This document shows, piece after piece, positions 52,644-62,019 of a DNA stretch of 64,000 nucleotides. Both the position numbers and the translations under genes were made by a program. Source of the DNA: Dehalococcoidia bacterium (GTDB lineage Bacteria; Chloroflexota; Dehalococcoidia; SM23-28-2; HRBIN24). Each line of letters opens with the position of its first letter. Position 1 is the first letter of the stretch. The DNA lies in assembly GCA_032249735.1 (NCBI GenBank), contig JAVVHA010000002.1, positions 1 to 64,000 of the forward strand, in the 5' to 3' direction. A model generated the notes under the pieces. It made no database searches. It worked only from the letters and a program-made list of their open reading frames with translations, and was not told the DNA's origin.

Positions 52644-53936
52644 ATGGCCAGGGTGAGAGGGAGGGCCTTGAGCCACGACTACCAGAAGACCGCTCTTCCC
52701 AACGGTCTACGGGTGGTCACCGCCTATAGGCAGGCCTACTCTGTGGCCATAAGCATATATGTGGGGGCCGGCTCCCGCTACGAGCGAGACGAAGAAGCAG
52801 GCATCTCCCACTTCGTGGAGCACCTCTGCTTCAAGGGCACTGAGAAGCACCCCACCCCCAGGCACGTAGCAGAGGTGGTAGACGTGGTGGGTGGCGACGT
52901 GAACGGTGCCACCGACCGCGAGCTGACCGTCTTCTACGCCAAGGTGGCGCGGGACGACTTCCCCACCGCCCTAGACCTCCTGCTGGACCTCATCTCCTCC
53001 CCCCTCTTCGACCCGCAAGAGGTGGAGCGGGAGAGGGAGGTGGTGCTGGAGGAGCTGGCTTCCATCGAGGACTCCCCTTCTCAACTGGTAGGGGTGCTGG
53101 TGGAGGCCGCCCTGTGGCCTGGCAACCCCCTCGGCAGGGACGTGGCCGGGACCCGCCAATCGGTCCAGGCCATCACCCGCGACCAGGCCTTGGCCTATCA
53201 GCGGAGGCAGTACGTGCCCAATAACATGGTCATCGCTGTGGCTGGCGCCGTAGACCACCAGGAGGTGGTGGACGCCATCTGGCAGCGGGCTGGCCGGTGG
53301 CCGGCCGGGGCCCCCGCCACGTGGATCCCGGTGAGCAACGGCACCGGTCCGAAGGTGACGGTCCGCTATAAGGACACCGAACAGGCCCACCTGGCGGTGG
53401 CGATGCGCGGCCTCTCCCTCCTCCATCCCCAACGCCATGTCCTATCCCTCATCTCTCTGGCACTGGGGGAGGGCATGAGCAGCCGCCTGTTCCTGGAGCT
53501 ACGGGAGAGGCGAGGGCTGGTATACGAGATCAGCTCCTATGTGCACTTCTTCCTGGACACAGGGGCCCTCACCATATACGCCGGCACCGAGCCCCGCAAG
53601 GCGCCATCGGTGATCTCCATCATCATGGAGGAGCTGGAGCGGCTGCGGCAGGAGGGGCTGAGGGAAGAGGAGCTGGCGCGGGCGCACAAGCTGGCTAGGA
53701 GCCGTATTCTCCTCCGGCTGGAGGATACTCGTAACGTCGCCGGTTGGTTGGGCGGCCAAGAGCTTCTCCTGGGCCGCATACGCACCCCTGAGGAGGTGCT
53801 GCAGGAGATAGAGCAGGTGACGGCCGAGGATATCAAAAGGGTGGCCCAGGAGCTGTTGCAGCCCCAGGCCGCTTGCTTAGCGGCCGTAGGCCCCCTTCCC
53901 TCCGATGGCCCTCTGGCCTCCGCCCTAGGGGCCTGA
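52644..53936 (+). CDS. M16 (insulinase-like) zinc metallopeptidase
   Basis: The 430-residue M16 protein has the inverted zinc motif HFVEHLCFKGTEK (HxxEH) followed by the distant Glu in the VLEELASIEDSPSQ helix, and a second, inactive-type half. Family stretches include VAISIYVGAGSRYERDEEAG and GMSSRLFLELRERRGLVYEI. The processing-peptidase/YmxG-like size (about 420) supports start 52644. It is cytoplasmic by the absence of a signal. The 3' end overlaps the subtilase-like gene by 12 bases, tail-to-tail. Confidence 0.92.
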   Translation: MARVRGRALSHDYQKTALPNGLRVVTAYRQAYSVAISIYVGAGSRYERDEEAGISHFVEHLCFKGTEKHPTPRHVAEVVDVVGGDVNGATDRELTVFYAKVARDDFPTALDLLLDLISSPLFDPQEVEREREVVLEELASIEDSPSQLVGVLVEAALWPGNPLGRDVAGTRQSVQAITRDQALAYQRRQYVPNNMVIAVAGAVDHQEVVDAIWQRAGRWPAGAPATWIPVSNGTGPKVTVRYKDTEQAHLAVAMRGLSLLHPQRHVLSLISLALGEGMSSRLFLELRERRGLVYEISSYVHFFLDTGALTIYAGTEPRKAPSVISIIMEELERLRQEGLREEELARAHKLARSRILLRLEDTRNVAGWLGGQELLLGRIRTPEEVLQEIEQVTAEDIKRVAQELLQPQAACLAAVGPLPSDGPLASALGA

Positions 53937-56015
53937 AGGCGGAGGAGGCAGGAGGGAGGTGGGCTGACCCATCTCTGGGCACCCCTCCTCCACGCGCACG
54001 GACAGCCCTACGACGAAGCGCAGTATCTTGAGGGCATCCACGGCACTCACCTGGCGGTCGCAGTCCACATCGCCCCACGCTGGGGAGCTGTCCAGAGAGC
54101 CGCCTACCACTGGGCAGGGCTGGGATTGGCTGACCGAGAGGCCCACCACATAGCGTAAGGTCTGAAGGGCGTCCACCGCGTCCACCGAGCGGCTGCAGTT
54201 CAAATCGCCCCATATCACCTGGGAGCTCTCGCGACAGAGGCGGGAGGCAGCAGCCAGGGCGTCCAGAAGGCCAGCACCGTACATGTTGTCCATCCCCGGC
54301 GGGCCCAGGTCAGTGGCCGTGGTCAAGATGGCCTGCAGGAGCTCCTGACGCTCCGCCCCCGGGTCCTCGGGCCCTGGGCCCGCTCGCAGGTCGGGCCGGC
54401 ACTCCAAGAGGAGAGCGGCAACAGCCGCCACATGGGGGGCAGCGGCCGAAGTGCCCAGGAAGCGTTGGGGGAACCCCCCCGCCCCCGAGACGCGCACTCC
54501 ATCCACAGCCACTATCTCCGGCTTGGTACGACCATCGTTGGTGGGGCCGCGGCTGCTGTAGGGAGCCAGCTGTCGGTTGGTTGGGTCAAAGGCGTTGATG
54601 GCCCCCACCGATATCACACCCCCCCCGGCGTCAGCCTGGTTGGTGACGCTACTCTCGGGGGTGTAGAAGTTGGCCCGACCGCCTATCACGAAGATGTCCA
54701 GCTCCCTTGCCCCCACGCCGGGGCCAGAGATGACCAGATCCACAGTGACCGGCTCTAAAGAGTTATTAGTCCAAACTAATGACTCAGTGGGGTTCTGGGT
54801 GCACGTCTGGGGATTGTTGCTGCTGGCCAAAAGGCGGGTGGTCCCATGCTCATAGAGGTGGACATTATAGTCTAAGCATGCGCCGCCAAAGGGCTCGTCC
54901 CACTGCACAAAGATGCGCAGCGTGCTCCGCCCCCCCACTAGGATGGGGTTGTCACACCGCGCCCCCAGGCCATCGCGGTCGATGGTGCGAGCAGTGGGGT
55001 AGAAGAGGTGGGGCCCCCCAGGGCCACAGGGGGTGAACCGCTCCTGATAGTGGTTTAGGGCGTGGTTACCCACCGCCGTTATATAGGCCCGCACCGGATT
55101 CTCAGAAGAGTTAAGAGCGTGGCTAGTGTTGAGAGAGACGACGCTGGTGCCATCGTAGGGGCCGACGTTCAGCCAGTTGACGTCATCCACTATGACGTCC
55201 ACCCTCCGGGCCAGGCAGTTGACCGCGGCGTTGAAGTCGAGGGGTGTGCCCATGGCGAAGTGGCCGAACCAAAGCTGGGCCTCTGGGGCCAGGTCATGGA
55301 CGATCTCCAGCATGGCCGTCCCCTCGGCACCTGTTAAGAGGGGGTCGGAGCCTGCCACCACGTTACAATCGGAGATGTTCACCGGGGGTAGCTCGCCGGC
55401 GGCCTGGGCCTCCCCCAGCCCCCTGACCCCATCGGATATGACGCCTACCTTGACGCCGCGGCCGGCGAAGCCGGTGACCATGCGTAGGTCGCGGGCCTTC
55501 AGGATATAGTCCCCCTGACTCACGACGCCCGCCCCCATGGGATAGGGGGGCTCCTCCACGTAGCGCACCACCGGCTGGGCTGCTAGCTCGCCCAACCTTA
55601 GGGGCGGGACCCAGGCCTGGACGATGCCCCAAGCCCCGTCCACCCTTTCCACCCTCCCCCCCACAGCCTCCACCGCCCTCACTACCTCCCCCACATCGTC
55701 CCCGTAGGCCCACACTTGCACTCGGTTGGCCATATCTAGACGCAAGACCCGGGCAGCCAGGGCTGGGCCGAGGTCGCCGTCCTCCTTCGGGAGACCCACC
55801 GCGCCCAGCTCCGACCTCTGCAAGGCCTCGTGAAGGGACAGCAGCCGTGAGAGGCGAGCGGAAAGCTTGAGCTCCTGGGATGGGGAGGGGAGGGCCTCCA
55901 TCCGCTCCTGGGCCAGGCGCACCCCCTCAGGAATCGCTGAAGGCCCGTGGTGCTGCGCCGCCGCACCCCACACTAGGGCCATAGGGACGATGGCCAGCAA
56001 CACCATCCGCCTCAT
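53925..56015 (-). CDS. Secreted subtilase-like (S8) protein with dockerin, Glu in place of catalytic His
   Basis: The 696-residue product has a signal peptide (residues 1-20) and an S8-like domain. Asp195 is in VGVISDGVRGL, Asn317 in ITAVGNHALN and Ser523 in GTSAAAPHVAA. The usual catalytic-His segment (HGTHVAG) aligns with AEGTAMLEIVHDLAP, so Glu231 takes the place of the His; sedolisins also use Glu there. Near the C terminus, two EF-hand-like dockerin repeats are present: GDLNCSRSVDAVDALQTLRY and GDVDCDRQVSAVDALKILRF. ATG 56015 is chosen for the signal peptide with GGCGGGGAC before it. It is exported and may attach to a cohesin. Confidence 0.85.
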   Translation of the reverse strand: MRRMVLLAIVPMALVWGAAAQHHGPSAIPEGVRLAQERMEALPSPSQELKLSARLSRLLSLHEALQRSELGAVGLPKEDGDLGPALAARVLRLDMANRVQVWAYGDDVGEVVRAVEAVGGRVERVDGAWGIVQAWVPPLRLGELAAQPVVRYVEEPPYPMGAGVVSQGDYILKARDLRMVTGFAGRGVKVGVISDGVRGLGEAQAAGELPPVNISDCNVVAGSDPLLTGAEGTAMLEIVHDLAPEAQLWFGHFAMGTPLDFNAAVNCLARRVDVIVDDVNWLNVGPYDGTSVVSLNTSHALNSSENPVRAYITAVGNHALNHYQERFTPCGPGGPHLFYPTARTIDRDGLGARCDNPILVGGRSTLRIFVQWDEPFGGACLDYNVHLYEHGTTRLLASSNNPQTCTQNPTESLVWTNNSLEPVTVDLVISGPGVGARELDIFVIGGRANFYTPESSVTNQADAGGGVISVGAINAFDPTNRQLAPYSSRGPTNDGRTKPEIVAVDGVRVSGAGGFPQRFLGTSAAAPHVAAVAALLLECRPDLRAGPGPEDPGAERQELLQAILTTATDLGPPGMDNMYGAGLLDALAAASRLCRESSQVIWGDLNCSRSVDAVDALQTLRYVVGLSVSQSQPCPVVGGSLDSSPAWGDVDCDRQVSAVDALKILRFVVGLSVRVEEGCPEMGQPTSLLPPPPSGP

Positions 56016-56276
56016 GTCCCCGCCTCTATCACCATCAGCGTGCGATGACCACCCTCCCACGTCAAGCTGGCCATTCCCCAAGCCTGTTTGGATGGAAGGC
56101 CTTCCCCCTCATGTGTAAGGTAAAGCCCCAAGAACCCACGTGACCTTTGGCACCGGAATCTCGGGACTAATGGCCCTCATACCGGTCTAGTTCTGTCCGA
56201 TTTACTCATACACGAGAGGTCCTGACCCCGGCAGGGGCAGGGCCAGATAGGCTAGTTGCGCGGGAGGGCAGAGAGG
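56016..56276. other. Divergent intergenic region of the subtilase-like gene and nosZ
   Basis: This 261-base gap is the largest in the window. It holds no ORF of note. The GGGAGGG ribosome site of nosZ is at 56262-56268. A clear -35/-10 pair was not identified. CACGTGACCTTTGGCACCGG around 56140-56160 resembles a degraded CRP/FNR-type half site, but the match is too weak to call. Regulation by nitrogen oxides is possible and unproven. Confidence 0.4.
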
Positions 56277-58310
56277 ATGAAGGTCTTCAAGCCGTATTTA
56301 AAGGTAATGGTCCTGCTGTCCCTGCTGGCCATAGGCTTTGGCCTCCTGGGCCAGGCCTGTGGCCGCGGAGAGAAGGAGGGAACACCCGTAACCGGCGCCA
56401 CAGCCCAGGACATAGCACGCGCCCGCGGCCTCAGCAATGAGGACGTGGTGCGGGCCCTTAAGCAGTTCATTCCCCCTGGCAAGTACGATGAATACCTCCT
56501 GTTCGCCTCCGGCGGCCATTCGGGCCAGGTGTTGGTCATCGGCGTCCCCTCCATGCGCATCCTGAAGGTGATCGGCGTCTTCACCCCTGAGCCGTGGCAA
56601 GGCCTGGGGTATGGTGCCGATTGGGGCGACACCGTTCTCGAGCAGGGCAATCCCAACATCCCCGAGAACGTGAGATTGGGTTGGGGCGACGTCCATCACC
56701 CCGCCCTGAGCGAGACCAACGGAGAGTACGATGGCCGCTGGCTCTACGTCAACGACCGGGCCAACGGCCGGGTGGCCATGGTGGACCTGCGGGACTTCCG
56801 TGTCAAGCAGATCGTGGCCATCCCCAACATGCAGACCAATCACGGTGGGGCTTTTGTCACCCCCAACACGGAATACATCGTCGTCACCTCCAAATACCCC
56901 ACCCCATGGCCCGAGGGCTCCTTCGCCGAGCTGAGCGAATACGCTGAGAAGTTCCGCGGGGTGGCCTCCTTCCTCAAGGTCCACCCGGAGACGGGCCGCA
57001 TCGTGCTGGAGGAAAGCTTCCAGGTGGAGCTCCCGCCCTATAACCAGGACCTGGCCGATGCCGGCAAGAAGGTGAGCGATGGCTGGGCCTTCTTCAACTC
57101 CTTTAACACCGAGCTGGCCACCGGCGGCGTCCTGGAGGGCAAGCCCCCCTTGGAGGCGGGCATGTCTCAGAACGCCTTCGACTACCTCCACATCATCAAC
57201 TGGCGGAAGGCCCAGGAGGTGGTGGCCGCTGGCAAGTATGAGATGCTCAACGGCATGCGGGTCATCCGCCTCCCCACCGCCATCCAGGAGGGGATCCTCT
57301 TCTTCGCCCCCGAGCCTAAGAGCCCCCACGGTGTGGACGTGGACCCCAGTGGCCGCTACATCGTGGTGGCTGGCAAGCTGGACCCCCACGTCACCATCTA
57401 CGACTTCAAGAAGATCGAGGAAGCCATCCGCAACCGCAACTTCGAGGGGACCGACCGCTACGGGGTGCCCATCTTGAAGTTCGATGCCGTGGTGGCTGCC
57501 CAGGTGGAGGTGGGGGCCGGGCCCCTGCACACCCAGTTCGATGACCAAGGCCATGGCTACACCAGTCTGTTCATCGAGAGCGCCGTGGCCAAGTTCACCC
57601 TCGGCCCGGACGTGGTGAAGACGGGCGAGCCCCCCTTCACCCTGGTGGACAAGATCAACGTCCACTACAACATCGGCCACCTGGTGGCGGCCGAGGGCGA
57701 CACGGTGAGCCCTGACAGCAACTATCTGGTGGCCCTCAACAAGTGGTCCATCGACCGCTTCCTGACGGTGGGTCCCCTCCACCCCCAGAACTTCCAGCTC
57801 ATCGACCTCAAGGGCGGCCGTGGGCCCATGGAGCTCATCGCCGATATGCCCATACCCATTGGCGAGCCCCACTACTCTCAGATGATCAAGGCGGACAAGG
57901 TGAAGGCGTGGGAGGTCTACCCTGTGGGCACCAACGCCCTCACCATGAAGCCAGACCCCAACGCCGTCAAGCAGGGCCAGGAGCGCATCGAGCGGCGGGG
58001 GAACACGGTGGAGGTGTGGATGACGGCCGTGCGCAGCCACTTCAGGCCCGACCAGATCCGGGTGAGACAGGGCGACAAGGTCATCCTCCACATCACCAAT
58101 CCTGAGCAGACGCGCGATGCCACCCACGGCTTCGCCATCGCCGACTACAACATCCAGGTGAGCATCGAGCCTGGCGAGACCACCACCATTGAGTTCGTGG
58201 CCGATAAGCCGGGCGTGTTCAACTTCTACTGCACCGAGTTCTGCTCCGCCCTGCACCTGGAGATGGCCGGCTGGCTGCTGGTGGAGCCCGCCAAGGTGGC
58301 AGGACGTTAG
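56277..58310 (+). CDS. nosZ: Nitrous oxide reductase, Sec-type (clade II) NosZ
   Basis: The 677-residue copper enzyme reduces N2O to N2 in the periplasm or outer envelope. The signal is a short Sec-type one (VLLSLLAIGFGLLGQAC), without the twin-arginine motif of clade I. CuZ His ligands occur in DVHHPALSE, QTNHGGAFV, SPHGVDVDP, DPHVTIYDF, GPLHTQFDD, NIGHLVAA and GEPHYSQM. The CuA site is FYCTEFCSALHLEMAGWLLV (C-x3-C-x3-H-x2-M). Start 56277 follows GGGAGGGCAGAGAGG. It heads a run with nosB-like, nosD, nosF and nosY. Confidence 0.97.
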   Translation: MKVFKPYLKVMVLLSLLAIGFGLLGQACGRGEKEGTPVTGATAQDIARARGLSNEDVVRALKQFIPPGKYDEYLLFASGGHSGQVLVIGVPSMRILKVIGVFTPEPWQGLGYGADWGDTVLEQGNPNIPENVRLGWGDVHHPALSETNGEYDGRWLYVNDRANGRVAMVDLRDFRVKQIVAIPNMQTNHGGAFVTPNTEYIVVTSKYPTPWPEGSFAELSEYAEKFRGVASFLKVHPETGRIVLEESFQVELPPYNQDLADAGKKVSDGWAFFNSFNTELATGGVLEGKPPLEAGMSQNAFDYLHIINWRKAQEVVAAGKYEMLNGMRVIRLPTAIQEGILFFAPEPKSPHGVDVDPSGRYIVVAGKLDPHVTIYDFKKIEEAIRNRNFEGTDRYGVPILKFDAVVAAQVEVGAGPLHTQFDDQGHGYTSLFIESAVAKFTLGPDVVKTGEPPFTLVDKINVHYNIGHLVAAEGDTVSPDSNYLVALNKWSIDRFLTVGPLHPQNFQLIDLKGGRGPMELIADMPIPIGEPHYSQMIKADKVKAWEVYPVGTNALTMKPDPNAVKQGQERIERRGNTVEVWMTAVRSHFRPDQIRVRQGDKVILHITNPEQTRDATHGFAIADYNIQVSIEPGETTTIEFVADKPGVFNFYCTEFCSALHLEMAGWLLVEPAKVAGR

Positions 58311-58390
58311 CAAGCCCATGGACGGCCTGCGCCCTCTGGCGCAGGTGGGCGGGTGGGTGGGCTATGACCACAGAAGGGAGTAAAGGGACG

Positions 58391-59038
58391 ATGCGCCGGA
58401 TATTGAGACGACCAGAGGGCCCGTGGACGACAGCTGTGGTGGTGGGTGTAGCCCTCCTCCTGGCCTCGGTCTTTCTACCCTTGTGGCAGATGAACCTTAA
58501 GGCACCCCAGTACCCCAAGGGCCTCCTTATGTACGCCTACGGATATAAGTTCGCCGATAACCCCCGGACCACCTATAACGACATCAACGAGATCAGCAAC
58601 CTCAACCATTACATCGGCATGAAGCCTATAAAGAAGGTGGCGGAGATGAACGTCTTCCTGCCGGGGGTGGCTGCCCTGGCCCTCTTGGCCCTGGCCTCCA
58701 CGGTGGTGGGCTGGCGGAAGCGCCTGGTGAGGCTCCTGGTGGTGGGGGGCTTCTGGTTCGCCGTCCTCTTCTTCCTGGCCGACCTGCAATACTGGCTCTA
58801 CCATTACGGCCACGACCTGGACCCCCACGCCCCCATCCGCACCAGCCCCTTCACTCCCAAGCTGGTGGGCGCTCTAAAGGTGTGGAACTTCACAGTGGAG
58901 ACCAGGTTCGCCCCCGGTTTCTACCTGCTGCTGGGGGCCGCCCTGGCCATCACCATCCTTCCTCCAGCCTTGGCTACACTAAAGACATGGGCAGGGCAGC
59001 GACTGGGCGGGAGAGCGTTGACAGGCGTACCCCAATGA
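58391..59038 (+). CDS. NosB-like membrane protein
   Basis: The 215-residue protein has about four membrane helices (near residues 11-32, 86-105, 115-135 and 175-200) and a periplasmic loop with YPKGLLMYAYGYKFADNPRT. Its position between nosZ and nosD matches nosB of clade II clusters, a membrane protein with unknown role. Start 58391 is preferred for GGAG and AAAGGG upstream; an ATG at 58364 would add nine residues. Its stop overlaps the nosD start (ATGA). Confidence 0.7.
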   Translation: MRRILRRPEGPWTTAVVVGVALLLASVFLPLWQMNLKAPQYPKGLLMYAYGYKFADNPRTTYNDINEISNLNHYIGMKPIKKVAEMNVFLPGVAALALLALASTVVGWRKRLVRLLVVGGFWFAVLFFLADLQYWLYHYGHDLDPHAPIRTSPFTPKLVGALKVWNFTVETRFAPGFYLLLGAALAITILPPALATLKTWAGQRLGGRALTGVPQ

Positions 59039-60504
59039 GATGGGGACTTTGGGCCCTTGCCTTCCTTCTCCTCATCTGGCGGCCCTCACCGACGGTGAGG
59101 GCCGCTGGCCCTGAGCTTCCCTCCCAGGCCCTGCAGGAACGCATCGACGCTGCCCCTCCCGGCGCCACCCTGGAGGTGGAGGGGGGCATTTACATGGGCC
59201 CCATCAGCCTGCACAAGCCTATTCACCTAGTGGGCAAAGGGTGGCCCGTCATCGACGGGAGGGAGGAGGGGGACGTGGTGACCATCACAGCCAGCGGGGC
59301 CTCTATATCGGGCTTCGTCATCCGTGGCAGCAGTTGGAGCCCCTCCCAGGAGCCGGCGGCGGTGAAGGTGAAGGAAGCCAAGCAGGTAACCGTTAGAGGC
59401 AACCGCATCGAGAACTCCTTCTTCGGCATCTATCTCATCGATGCTGACGAGGCCATGGTAGAAGGCAACCAGGTGAGCCTTGCGCCCCACCGCCCCGTCT
59501 CCCGCCGCGGCCATGGCGTCTACGCTTGGGAGACGTCGGAGGCCATCTTCCGTGGCAACGTCATTTCCTATACCTCCGATGGCTTCTATTTGGACCACTC
59601 GGACAGCAACGCCATCCTTGATAACACGGTGCGGCACGGGCGCTTCGGCATCCATCTCATGTATTCGGACGATGTAGAGGTGATAGGCAACATCCTGAGG
59701 GAGAACCTGGCAGGCGTGGTGCAGATGTTCTCCCATCGCCTCCTGGTGCAGAGAAATGAGATCTCAGACCATCGGGGTGCTTCCGGTGTCGGCATATTGG
59801 TGAAGGACTCCGACGACCTGTTCGTCGTGGACAACAAGGTGGTGGGCAACGTATACGGCATCACCGCCGATGGTTCGCCACAGTCAGTGGGGTCCACAGT
59901 GGTATTTCAGCGCAACCTGTTGGCCTCTAACCAGGTGGGGATAGGGCTCATGCCCAACGCTCCCATCTCCGTCTTCGAGAACGCCTTCGTGGACAACGGG
60001 ATCCAGGTCCAGGCCCTGGGTAGAGGCGTCATGTCCCGCCTGATGGCCGTCCACGGTGGCGGTGGCGCCCACCACCATCACGCTGTCCAGGAGGAGCCCG
60101 TGTCCTTGCCTGCCGGGGTGGCCTTGGCCTCCGAAGGTCGTGGGAACTACTGGAGCGACTACCGCGGCTACGACCTGGACGGCGACGGGGTGGGCGACAT
60201 CCCATACAGGCTCACGTCCCTCTTCGCCCGGTTGAGCAGGGAGCAGCCCTCGGCCAGCGCTTTCCTGTACACCCTCGCCCATGAGGCCCTGGGGGTGGCA
60301 GAGCGGCTCTTCCCCATGGTGGGCGCGGGCGAGGCGTTGGAAGACCCGGCGCCGCTCATGGAGCCTCCCCTGGCCCTCGGAGGCGATGGAGAGGGCCCCT
60401 CTCTCGCCATGGTGGTGGTATCCTTGGCCATGGTAGGCCTCCCCGTCTATCTGGCTCTGTCCTTGCGCCCTCCCTGGAGGCGTCGACATGCTCACGGTGC
60501 GTAG
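59035..60504 (+). CDS. nosD: Copper-site maturation protein NosD
   Basis: The 489-residue periplasmic beta-helix protein has a signal peptide (residues 1-23) and many parallel beta-helix repeats (for example VTVRGNRIENSFFGIYLID and DGFYLDHSDSNAILDN). The hallmark GRGNYWSDYRGYDLDGDGVG lies near the C terminus. A final hydrophobic helix precedes RRRHAHG. NosD with NosFY delivers sulfur/copper for CuZ assembly. It overlaps the nosF start by 17 bases. GGGGAHHHH is an unusual His run near residue 344. Confidence 0.93.
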   Translation: MRWGLWALAFLLLIWRPSPTVRAAGPELPSQALQERIDAAPPGATLEVEGGIYMGPISLHKPIHLVGKGWPVIDGREEGDVVTITASGASISGFVIRGSSWSPSQEPAAVKVKEAKQVTVRGNRIENSFFGIYLIDADEAMVEGNQVSLAPHRPVSRRGHGVYAWETSEAIFRGNVISYTSDGFYLDHSDSNAILDNTVRHGRFGIHLMYSDDVEVIGNILRENLAGVVQMFSHRLLVQRNEISDHRGASGVGILVKDSDDLFVVDNKVVGNVYGITADGSPQSVGSTVVFQRNLLASNQVGIGLMPNAPISVFENAFVDNGIQVQALGRGVMSRLMAVHGGGGAHHHHAVQEEPVSLPAGVALASEGRGNYWSDYRGYDLDGDGVGDIPYRLTSLFARLSREQPSASAFLYTLAHEALGVAERLFPMVGAGEALEDPAPLMEPPLALGGDGEGPSLAMVVVSLAMVGLPVYLALSLRPPWRRRHAHGA

Positions 60505-61174
60505 CCTCAGTAAACGCTTCGGAGACCGCCTGGTGCTGAAGGGCATAGACCTGGCGGTGGGTCCAGGGCAGGTGGTGGCCGTGTTGGGGCCCAACGGTGC
60601 CGGCAAGACCACCATCTTCCGCTGCGTGTTGGGTCTTGTCCACTTCCAGGGCCAGGTGCTGGTGGGGGGGCTGGACGTGCGCCGGCATGGCCGGGAGGTG
60701 CGTCGCCTTATAGGGTATGTGCCCCAGTCCCCTGCCTTCCACCCACACATGACAGTGGAGGAGACGGTGCGCTATTATGCCCGCTTACGTGGCCTGGACG
60801 GGAATACTCAAGGACTCATAGCCACCATGGGGCTTGATTCCATATCTGGGAAGAGGGTGCGGGAGCTTTCAGGAGGGATGCTCCAGCGCCTGGCGGTGAC
60901 CGTGGCCCAACTGGGCCGCCCCCCTCTTATGCTCCTGGACGAGCCCTTTGCCAACCTGGATAGAGAGGGGCAGGCCCAACTGGCCAGCATGCTGAGGGAG
61001 TGGCAGAAGGCGGGGGTGGCCATCCTTGTGGCCAGCCATCACCTGGGGCCTTTAGTCTCCTTGGTGGACCGGGCGGTGGCCTTGGAGGAGGGGAGGGTGG
61101 TATATGAAGGGCCCTTGGCTGGCCTGCCCGTACCTCTGGGTGTGGAGGCGCCCCGCGAGGGGGAGGCCCGATGA
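60488..61174 (+). CDS. nosF: ABC transporter ATPase NosF
   Basis: The 228-residue ATPase has Walker A GPNGAGKTT, a Q-loop in YVPQSPAFHPHMTV, signature LSGGMLQRLAV, Walker B LMLLDEPFANLD and switch His in SHHLGPLV. The N-terminal MLTVRSLSKRFGDRLVL is typical of NosF. It couples with NosY for transport needed in CuZ maturation. It overlaps nosD by 17 bases and nosY by four (ATGA). Confidence 0.94.
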   Translation: MLTVRSLSKRFGDRLVLKGIDLAVGPGQVVAVLGPNGAGKTTIFRCVLGLVHFQGQVLVGGLDVRRHGREVRRLIGYVPQSPAFHPHMTVEETVRYYARLRGLDGNTQGLIATMGLDSISGKRVRELSGGMLQRLAVTVAQLGRPPLMLLDEPFANLDREGQAQLASMLREWQKAGVAILVASHHLGPLVSLVDRAVALEEGRVVYEGPLAGLPVPLGVEAPREGEAR

Positions 61175-62019
61175 CGAAGGCCCTAGCAGTGCAATGGCAC
61201 ACGACGAAGGTGGTCTTGCAGCGGGAGGTGGAGGAGGCCCTGGCCAACCGGTGGCTGCTGGCCTACGCTGCCCTCATGGGCCTCCTGGTCATCGTGGTCT
61301 CTTATGCTGGGTATAGGGAGCTGGGGCAGGCGGCCTTCCAGGGCCTCGGACGCACCACGGCCAGCCTATTGGGCCTGGCCTCCCTGTTGGTGTCGGTGAC
61401 CTCTTTGGTGCTAGGGGCCACCGCTATCGTGGGGGAGAGGGAGCGGGGTACACTGGCCACCCAGCTGGCCCAGCCTATTAGCTGGGAAGCCTTCCTGGTG
61501 GGCAAGTTCCTAGGCCAGGCGATGGCGCTGGCCATGGCCACCTCCCTGGGCCTGGGGGTGGGAGGGCTGGTGGTGGCCCTCCTCGCCCCGCTGGATCAGG
61601 CGGCCCTCATGCTGGTCTTCCTGGCGCTCATGGTGGGCTTGGGCACGGCCATGCTAGGGACAGGATATCTGGTGTCGGTGGTGGCTGGCGACCGGGTGCA
61701 GGCGCTCCTTGCGGCGGTGGCCCTCTGGTTCTGGTTCGTGCTGGTCATGGATTTGGTGGCCCTGGGGGCGGTGACAGCTGCCCACCTCAACGAGGCCTCC
61801 CTCTGGGCCCTCCTGCTCCTCAACCCGGTGGAGGTGGTCAGGCTTTTGGCCATCCTCTGGCTGGAGCCCGACCCCTTCGTCCTGGGCCCCCTGGGCTCCT
61901 TTGTGCGCGACACATTGGGTGTGGAGGCGGCATTGGCGGCCCTGGCTGCAGCCCTGGTGGCATGGATAGTTGCCCCCCTGGCTGGCGCCGCCGCCCTCTT
62001 CCGCAGGCAAGAAATATAA
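61171..62019 (+). CDS. nosY: ABC transporter permease NosY
   Basis: The 282-residue six-helix ABC-2-type permease begins with a cytoplasmic stretch LQREVEEALANRWLLAYAAL. The NosY signature VGERERGTLATQLAQPISWEAFLVGKFLGQ lies in the loop before helix 3, and LLLNPVEVVRLLAI is toward the C terminus. It pairs with NosF. No nosL, nosR or nosG/H/C genes follow; the strand turns over to groEL after a hairpin. Confidence 0.93.
   Translation: MTKALAVQWHTTKVVLQREVEEALANRWLLAYAALMGLLVIVVSYAGYRELGQAAFQGLGRTTASLLGLASLLVSVTSLVLGATAIVGERERGTLATQLAQPISWEAFLVGKFLGQAMALAMATSLGLGVGGLVVALLAPLDQAALMLVFLALMVGLGTAMLGTGYLVSVVAGDRVQALLAAVALWFWFVLVMDLVALGAVTAAHLNEASLWALLLLNPVEVVRLLAILWLEPDPFVLGPLGSFVRDTLGVEAALAALAAALVAWIVAPLAGAAALFRRQEI

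Follow-up and report, generated by a model that had tools for sequence, protein, structure and literature searches.

A widespread clade of subtilisin-fold peptidases with glutamate at the catalytic histidine site and a proposed Ser-Glu-Asp triad

The window analysed here, a 64,000-nucleotide stretch of contig JAVVHA010000002.1 from a Dehalococcoidia bacterium, carries a gene for a predicted secreted peptidase of the subtilisin fold that ends in two dockerin-type repeats (Table 1). The reading frame called in the initial annotation proved to be real and uninterrupted, and a purine-rich stretch (agaggcgggg), read from the sequence, lies just 5' of its ATG. Pfam matches the protein to Peptidase_S8 (PF00082) with an E-value of 6e-19 and 68.8 bits against a cut-off of 21.8, the match covering the C-terminal half only. 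In the AF2 model the catalytic domain has pLDDT values mostly of 90-98 and adopts the subtilisin fold, with Foldseek TM-scores of up to 0.86 to subtilisins, in agreement with the initial description of a fold that is otherwise S8-like; ranked by E-value, its top Foldseek matches are CspA, CspC and CspB. Residues 97-156 form a beta-alpha-beta-beta-alpha-beta element in the same model, mostly at pLDDT 84-97. Such an element is typical of I9 propeptides, and its presence favours a self-maturing enzyme. The domain inserted at residues 322-447 also occurs in the His-type relatives described below and weakly matches the C-terminal domain of Tk-SP (3afg) in a PDB profile alignment.

Table 1. Features of the peptidase gene, with positions in the window and residue numbers of the protein
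Feature	Position	Strand	Basis
E-type subtilisin-fold peptidase gene	53925..56015	-	ATG start, 696 aa, ORF without interruption
Predicted signal peptide, residues ~1-20, MRRMVLLAIVPMALVWGAAA	55956..56015	-	by eye from sequence
I9-like propeptide, residues ~97-156	55548..55727	-	AF2 secondary structure; putative family, no Pfam hit
S8-fold catalytic domain, residues 160-596	54228..55538	-	PF00082, AF2, Foldseek
Ser194 (Asp32 site) and Asp195 (next residue)	55431..55436	-	alignment, PDB profile alignment
Glu231 (His64 site), proposed general base	55323..55325	-	alignment; AF2
Asp277-Asp278; Asp278 at Ser125 site, proposed catalytic acid	55182..55187	-	alignment; AF2
Asn317, oxyanion-hole Asn (Asn155 site)	55065..55067	-	82/84 E-type, 23/23 His-type
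Inserted beta-rich domain, residues ~322-447, P/PPC-like jelly roll	54675..55052	-	AF2 strands 356-444
Ser523, putative nucleophile, in GTSAAAPH	54447..54449	-	80/80 E-type, 23/23 His-type
Dockerin-type repeat 1, residues 599-639	54099..54221	-	Pfam, Ca-loop pattern, PDB profile match
Dockerin-type repeat 2, residues 646-684	53964..54080	-	Pfam, Ca-loop pattern, PDB profile match

In a sister species of the same genus (G001) and in G002 the protease gene is flanked by groEL and an M16 peptidase gene, and one HRbin24 copy has this arrangement to the extent that its reading frames reveal. The window has the same neighbours, but a nos cluster (nosZ, a nosD-like gene, an ABC ATPase and a permease) at positions 56256-62019 comes between the protease and groEL. 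The protease has thus long resided at this locus. Because groEL directly adjoins the protease in G001 and G002, and no nosZ propeller was found in the three family relatives G001-G003, these arrangements suggest that the nos cluster was acquired at the protease-groEL spot. No link between the protease and nitrous oxide reduction is evident.

Relatives were collected from related genomes and from a set of 84,980 species, each represented by a single genome. The latter search returned 482 stretches related to the core of the protein, and the best 80 of these 482 were kept for analysis. Proteins that carry Glu at the site of the catalytic His (E-type) form a single clade with a support of 100/100 in a tree of 64 sequences, in which classical S8 peptidases are a separate outgroup. 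Within its own family the closest relatives are those of G001 (62% identity) and two HRbin24 copies (55-56%). Named E-type hosts belong to Chloroflexota (mostly Dehalococcoidia), Acidobacteriota, Sumerlaeota, Methylomirabilota and Bacillota, and further include methanogenic or methanotrophic archaea and one Patescibacteria record. The initial annotation had pointed to the low-pH activity of sedolisins; many of the relatives come from methanogens, which are usually neutral-pH organisms. A strong match was found in only 5 of 301 genomes sampled evenly across the phylum. On plasmids, a Persicobacter protein is of the Glu type and the Haloarcula protein examined is of the His type; the viral contigs searched held no relatives.

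Residues at the active site were counted in an alignment of 107 sequences, 84 with Glu (E-type) and 23 with His (His-type) at the position of subtilisin His64. The register between the two clades is ungapped, VKVAILDLGFQG aligning with VRVGVISDGVRG, and a second ungapped stretch runs through conserved flanks (VKVINYSVGWVNTGPGDGT in the E-type and VDIIVDDISWINVGPYDGT in the His-type). Glu231 occupies the His64 site, since EGTAMLE aligns with HGTAVAE of the His-type relatives; the column is Glu in 84/84 E-type and His in 23/23 His-type sequences, and Glu is also present in all 21 members that were recruited without the EGTA pattern. In the AF2 model Glu231 is the first residue of a helix (231-242) predicted with high confidence. 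The ungapped register likewise places the Asp32 column at Ser194 and not at Asp195, with Asp in 22/22 His-type and Ser in 82/83 E-type sequences, and the catalytic Asp residues of mirolase and Tk-SP land on Ser194 in the PDB profile alignment. At position 278, the Ser125 site, all 84 E-type sequences have Asp and all 23 His-type sequences have Ser. The preceding residue, Asp277, ends a strand (274-277) modelled with high confidence and is an Asp in 84/84 E-type sequences, being invariant in the Glu type only; neither Asp had any role in recruiting the relatives. The switches between the clades (D to S at 194, H to E at 231 and S to D at 278) are each fixed or nearly so within each clade, and because the rewiring has a single origin, we treat their co-occurrence as one event and not as repeated covariation. 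The Persicobacter relative, of an EGRGM subtype, likewise has SDS, EGRGM and VIVDD. Judged from the alignment, the invariance of Glu231, Asp277, Asp278 and Ser523 across several phyla is far beyond chance. The E-type is an ancient subtilisin-family branch of wide distribution, marked by a joint change at three active-site positions.

The initial annotation had proposed an Asp195-Glu231-Ser523 triad. All three residues are present and the placement of Glu231 at the His site holds, but taking Asp195 as the S8 catalytic Asp was off by one residue, and the invariant acids specific to the E-type are Asp277 and Asp278 instead. A different His acting as the base was also considered. His240, His322 and His528 are conserved, yet they are also found in His-type relatives with a normal triad, and we rejected them as replacement bases for this reason. 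As a separate feature of the clade, Asp169 (80/83) and Arg178 (81/83), which form a GD........R motif, are near-invariant among Glu-type members only.

In the subtilisin core, residue 125 is in contact with the catalytic base as well as the nucleophile, at distances of 3.2 A from Ser125 O to His64 CE1 and 2.8 A from Ser125 OG to Ser221 O, and it is Ser in both main subtilase groups and in two tabulated sedolisins (PMC11593635). An acid at this position would be within reach of both groups because of these contacts. As the residue that makes them is Asp here, we propose a rewired Ser523-Glu231-Asp278 triad, and we lean slightly towards the view that the protein is a secreted serine-carboxyl peptidase of S8 fold whose triad is common to a single ancient clade. 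The newly made enzyme would carry a signal peptide followed by an I9-like propeptide and would mature by self-cleavage. In the active form, Ser523 would serve as the nucleophile and Glu231 as the general base, with Asp278 as the third acid completing a predicted Asp278-Glu231-Ser523 hydrogen-bond chain; the neighbouring Asp277 probably assists, possibly by sharing charge. The ancestral Asp32 would have given way to Ser194, and the oxyanion hole would retain the subtilisin Asn as Asn317. The tandem dockerin would tether the enzyme to the cell surface, presumably via a membrane-anchored cohesin. An Asp at the Ser125 site might also be structural or need protonation, which is conceivable because the subtilisin Ser125 side chain faces the Ser221 carbonyl, and Asp195, an Asp in ~90% of relatives, could contribute.

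The arrangement of the acids could differ in detail. Asp277 equals Asp278 in invariance (84/84) and in E-type specificity, so that Asp277 could be the acid partner, or the two could form a carboxylate cluster with Glu231 in which a proton is shared; we regard this as unlikely, as it is residue 125, equivalent to Asp278, that contacts base and nucleophile in the subtilisin core, whereas residue 124 uses its carbonyl to contact the Oxy segment (PMC11593635). Rather unlikely, too, is an arrangement in which Asp195, shifted by one residue, still provides the acid to Glu231 while Asp277 and Asp278 are structural. Asp195 adjoins the Asp32 site, and 75 of 83 E-type members share this Asp, but in the remaining eight, which include L084, L101, L119, L127, L128, L138 and L142, SNG replaces SDG after the Ser of the Asp32 site while the other active-site residues are kept. 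On the aligned residues, these members are a natural experiment that speaks against Asp195 as the catalytic acid. Adjacent residues at a strand end, moreover, normally face opposite sides, and at the Asp32 site all but one of 83 members have Ser.

Loss of both the Asp32 and the His64 residue, together with top Foldseek E-values to the Csp proteins, would also fit a pseudoprotease that binds without cleaving, like CspC or CspA. We consider this improbable, given that Ser523, Glu231 and Asp277/Asp278 are invariant and Asn317 is near-invariant across phyla, that the I9-like propeptide is retained, and that active sedolisins prove that Glu can act as a base on this fold. A literature search found no biochemistry on the clade.

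The sedolisins were also considered as the family of origin. The E-type profile matches the His-type sister clade with an E-value of 8e-86, classical S8 peptidases with 4e-21 and sedolisins of the same phylum with 2e-4, while S8 and sedolisin profiles compared with each other give 4e-9. In the profile alignment Glu231 falls on sedolisin Glu78 and Met235 on Asp82, and in the E-type members listed no acid is present at the position four residues after the Glu, in keeping with the initial annotation, which had noted that the sedolisin Asp is missing there. A divergent true sedolisin (S53) is highly improbable: the spacing from Glu231/Glu237 to the AP motif is that of sedolisin E78/E84 and the N-terminal half alone weakly matches kumamolisin in the PDB (E 0.1), but the profile is nearer to S8, the +4 Asp is lacking, the oxyanion residue is Asn rather than Asp, Pro-kuma_activ (PF09286) has no match in the home assembly at E <= 1e-15 nor in the Pfam scan of the protein, and there are no sedolisins among the 50 best Foldseek matches of the AF2 model. 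Membership of S53 was ruled out on the profile-profile comparison and residue checks, and Glu231 is most simply read as a parallel change within S8. We take the CDD model cd05562, 'Peptidases_S53_like', to include EGRAM-type relatives such as L024 and the Persicobacter protein; its description, as we understand it, transfers the sedolisin triad, a poor fit to a sequence with no Asp at +4. The literature search found no mention of cd05562 or Glr3161, and 'S53-like' appeared in it only in passing, in Trichomonas work.

The two dockerin repeats at the C terminus, as first annotated, are borne out by two loop-plus-helix units with the calcium loops DLNCSRSVDAVD and DVDCDRQVSAVD. Dockerin_1 (PF00404) scores 17.4 bits for the protein alone against a cut-off of 22.9, and 23.5 bits with in-frame neighbours in a whole-genome search. 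In the PDB, a profile of 12 tandem pairs hits dockerins almost exclusively (best E 4e-4), and by these matches the tandem repeat is a relative of type I dockerins. AF2 gives the pair a pLDDT of 49 with four sequences as input, a confidence too low for the modelled fold to be used. Dockerin_1 matches occur in 16 of 25 genomes of the order, with up to 14 per genome, so that such a tail is common in the order and not unusual outside cellulosomes, contrary to the initial annotation. Of the best 80 Glu-type proteases, at least 18 carry one or two such loops at the C terminus, counted with a strict pattern that misses some; others have C-terminal membrane anchors or Ig-like-looking tails. Three more dockerin proteins are present in the home genome, namely a His-type protease, a CAP-domain-like protein and a beta-propeller-like protein.

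The initial annotation implied a cohesin partner. The home assembly has no match to cohesin (PF00963); 12 of the 25 genomes of the order have one over the cut-off. In G001 a 224-residue protein consists of a signal, a cohesin, a proline-threonine linker and a C-terminal membrane anchor (TM, RRAVS). It comes directly after a tandem-dockerin protein of 949 residues or more (L047, G001:C93:2-3611), and the two are a candidate pair for docking at the surface outside cellulosomes. With this cohesin as query, the home genome returned only the anchor-like tail of L146 (G000:C28:3-578), which resembles that of the G001 cohesin; L146 has a proline-threonine repeat linker and a C-terminal membrane anchor, is open at the contig start and lacks its front. 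Given cohesins in the order, an anchored one in the genus and a matching anchor tail at a contig edge at home, surface docking of the protease is plausible. A layout similar to that of the G001 pair occurs at G015:C8:21433-24801 (L056), where a dockerin-tailed protein is followed by an anchored cohesin and then by a protein ending in a dockerin pair.

For the subtilisin-like superfamily, two triads have been described, with the catalytic acid at one of just two sites (PMC11593635). The E-type clade appears to add a third triad. We put forward tentatively, at just under even confidence, that this is a third catalytic layout of the subtilisin fold, Ser-Glu-Asp, in which the Ser125 position (Asp278) provides the acid, independent of both Asp32 and the sedolisin Asp at Glu+4, and found clade-wide in at least six bacterial/archaeal phyla. 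Base and acid appear to have switched jointly, in a single ancient step out of the His type, whose members persist in the same genomes; this opens the passage from Ser-His-Asp to Ser-Glu-Asp to point-mutant study. Databases label E-type proteins as plain S8 peptidases or, presumably, as S53-like; as the E-type triad would differ from both, either label would misassign the active site.

Compared with known systems, the tail has the duplicated calcium loop, or F-hand, of cellulosomal type I dockerins, whereas its halves are more widely spaced, its repeats hold the Cys pairs C607/C634 and C652/C679, likely disulfides, and no scaffoldin was found in the genome. The His-type paralogues of the same genome (G000:C15 and C1) share the inserted domain, with 31% identity between the clade profiles, and that of G000:C15 likewise ends in a dockerin half; in contrast, both hold the canonical Asp-His-Ser triad and have Ser at position 125. 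With the MEROPS S53 peptidases sedolisin and kumamolisin, the window protease has in common a Glu at the His64 site, the loss of Asp32 and the spacing from Glu to AP. It differs from them in lacking the +4 Asp and the kumamolisin-type prodomain, in having Asn instead of Asp in the oxyanion hole and Asp instead of Ser at the 125 site, and in a sequence closer to S8. With the MEROPS S8 peptidases (subtilisin, Tk-SP, mirolase and CspB) it shares the fold, the Ser in GTS, the oxyanion Asn, the I9-like propeptide and PF00082, and it departs from them by Ser in place of Asp32, Glu in place of His64 and Asp in place of Ser125.
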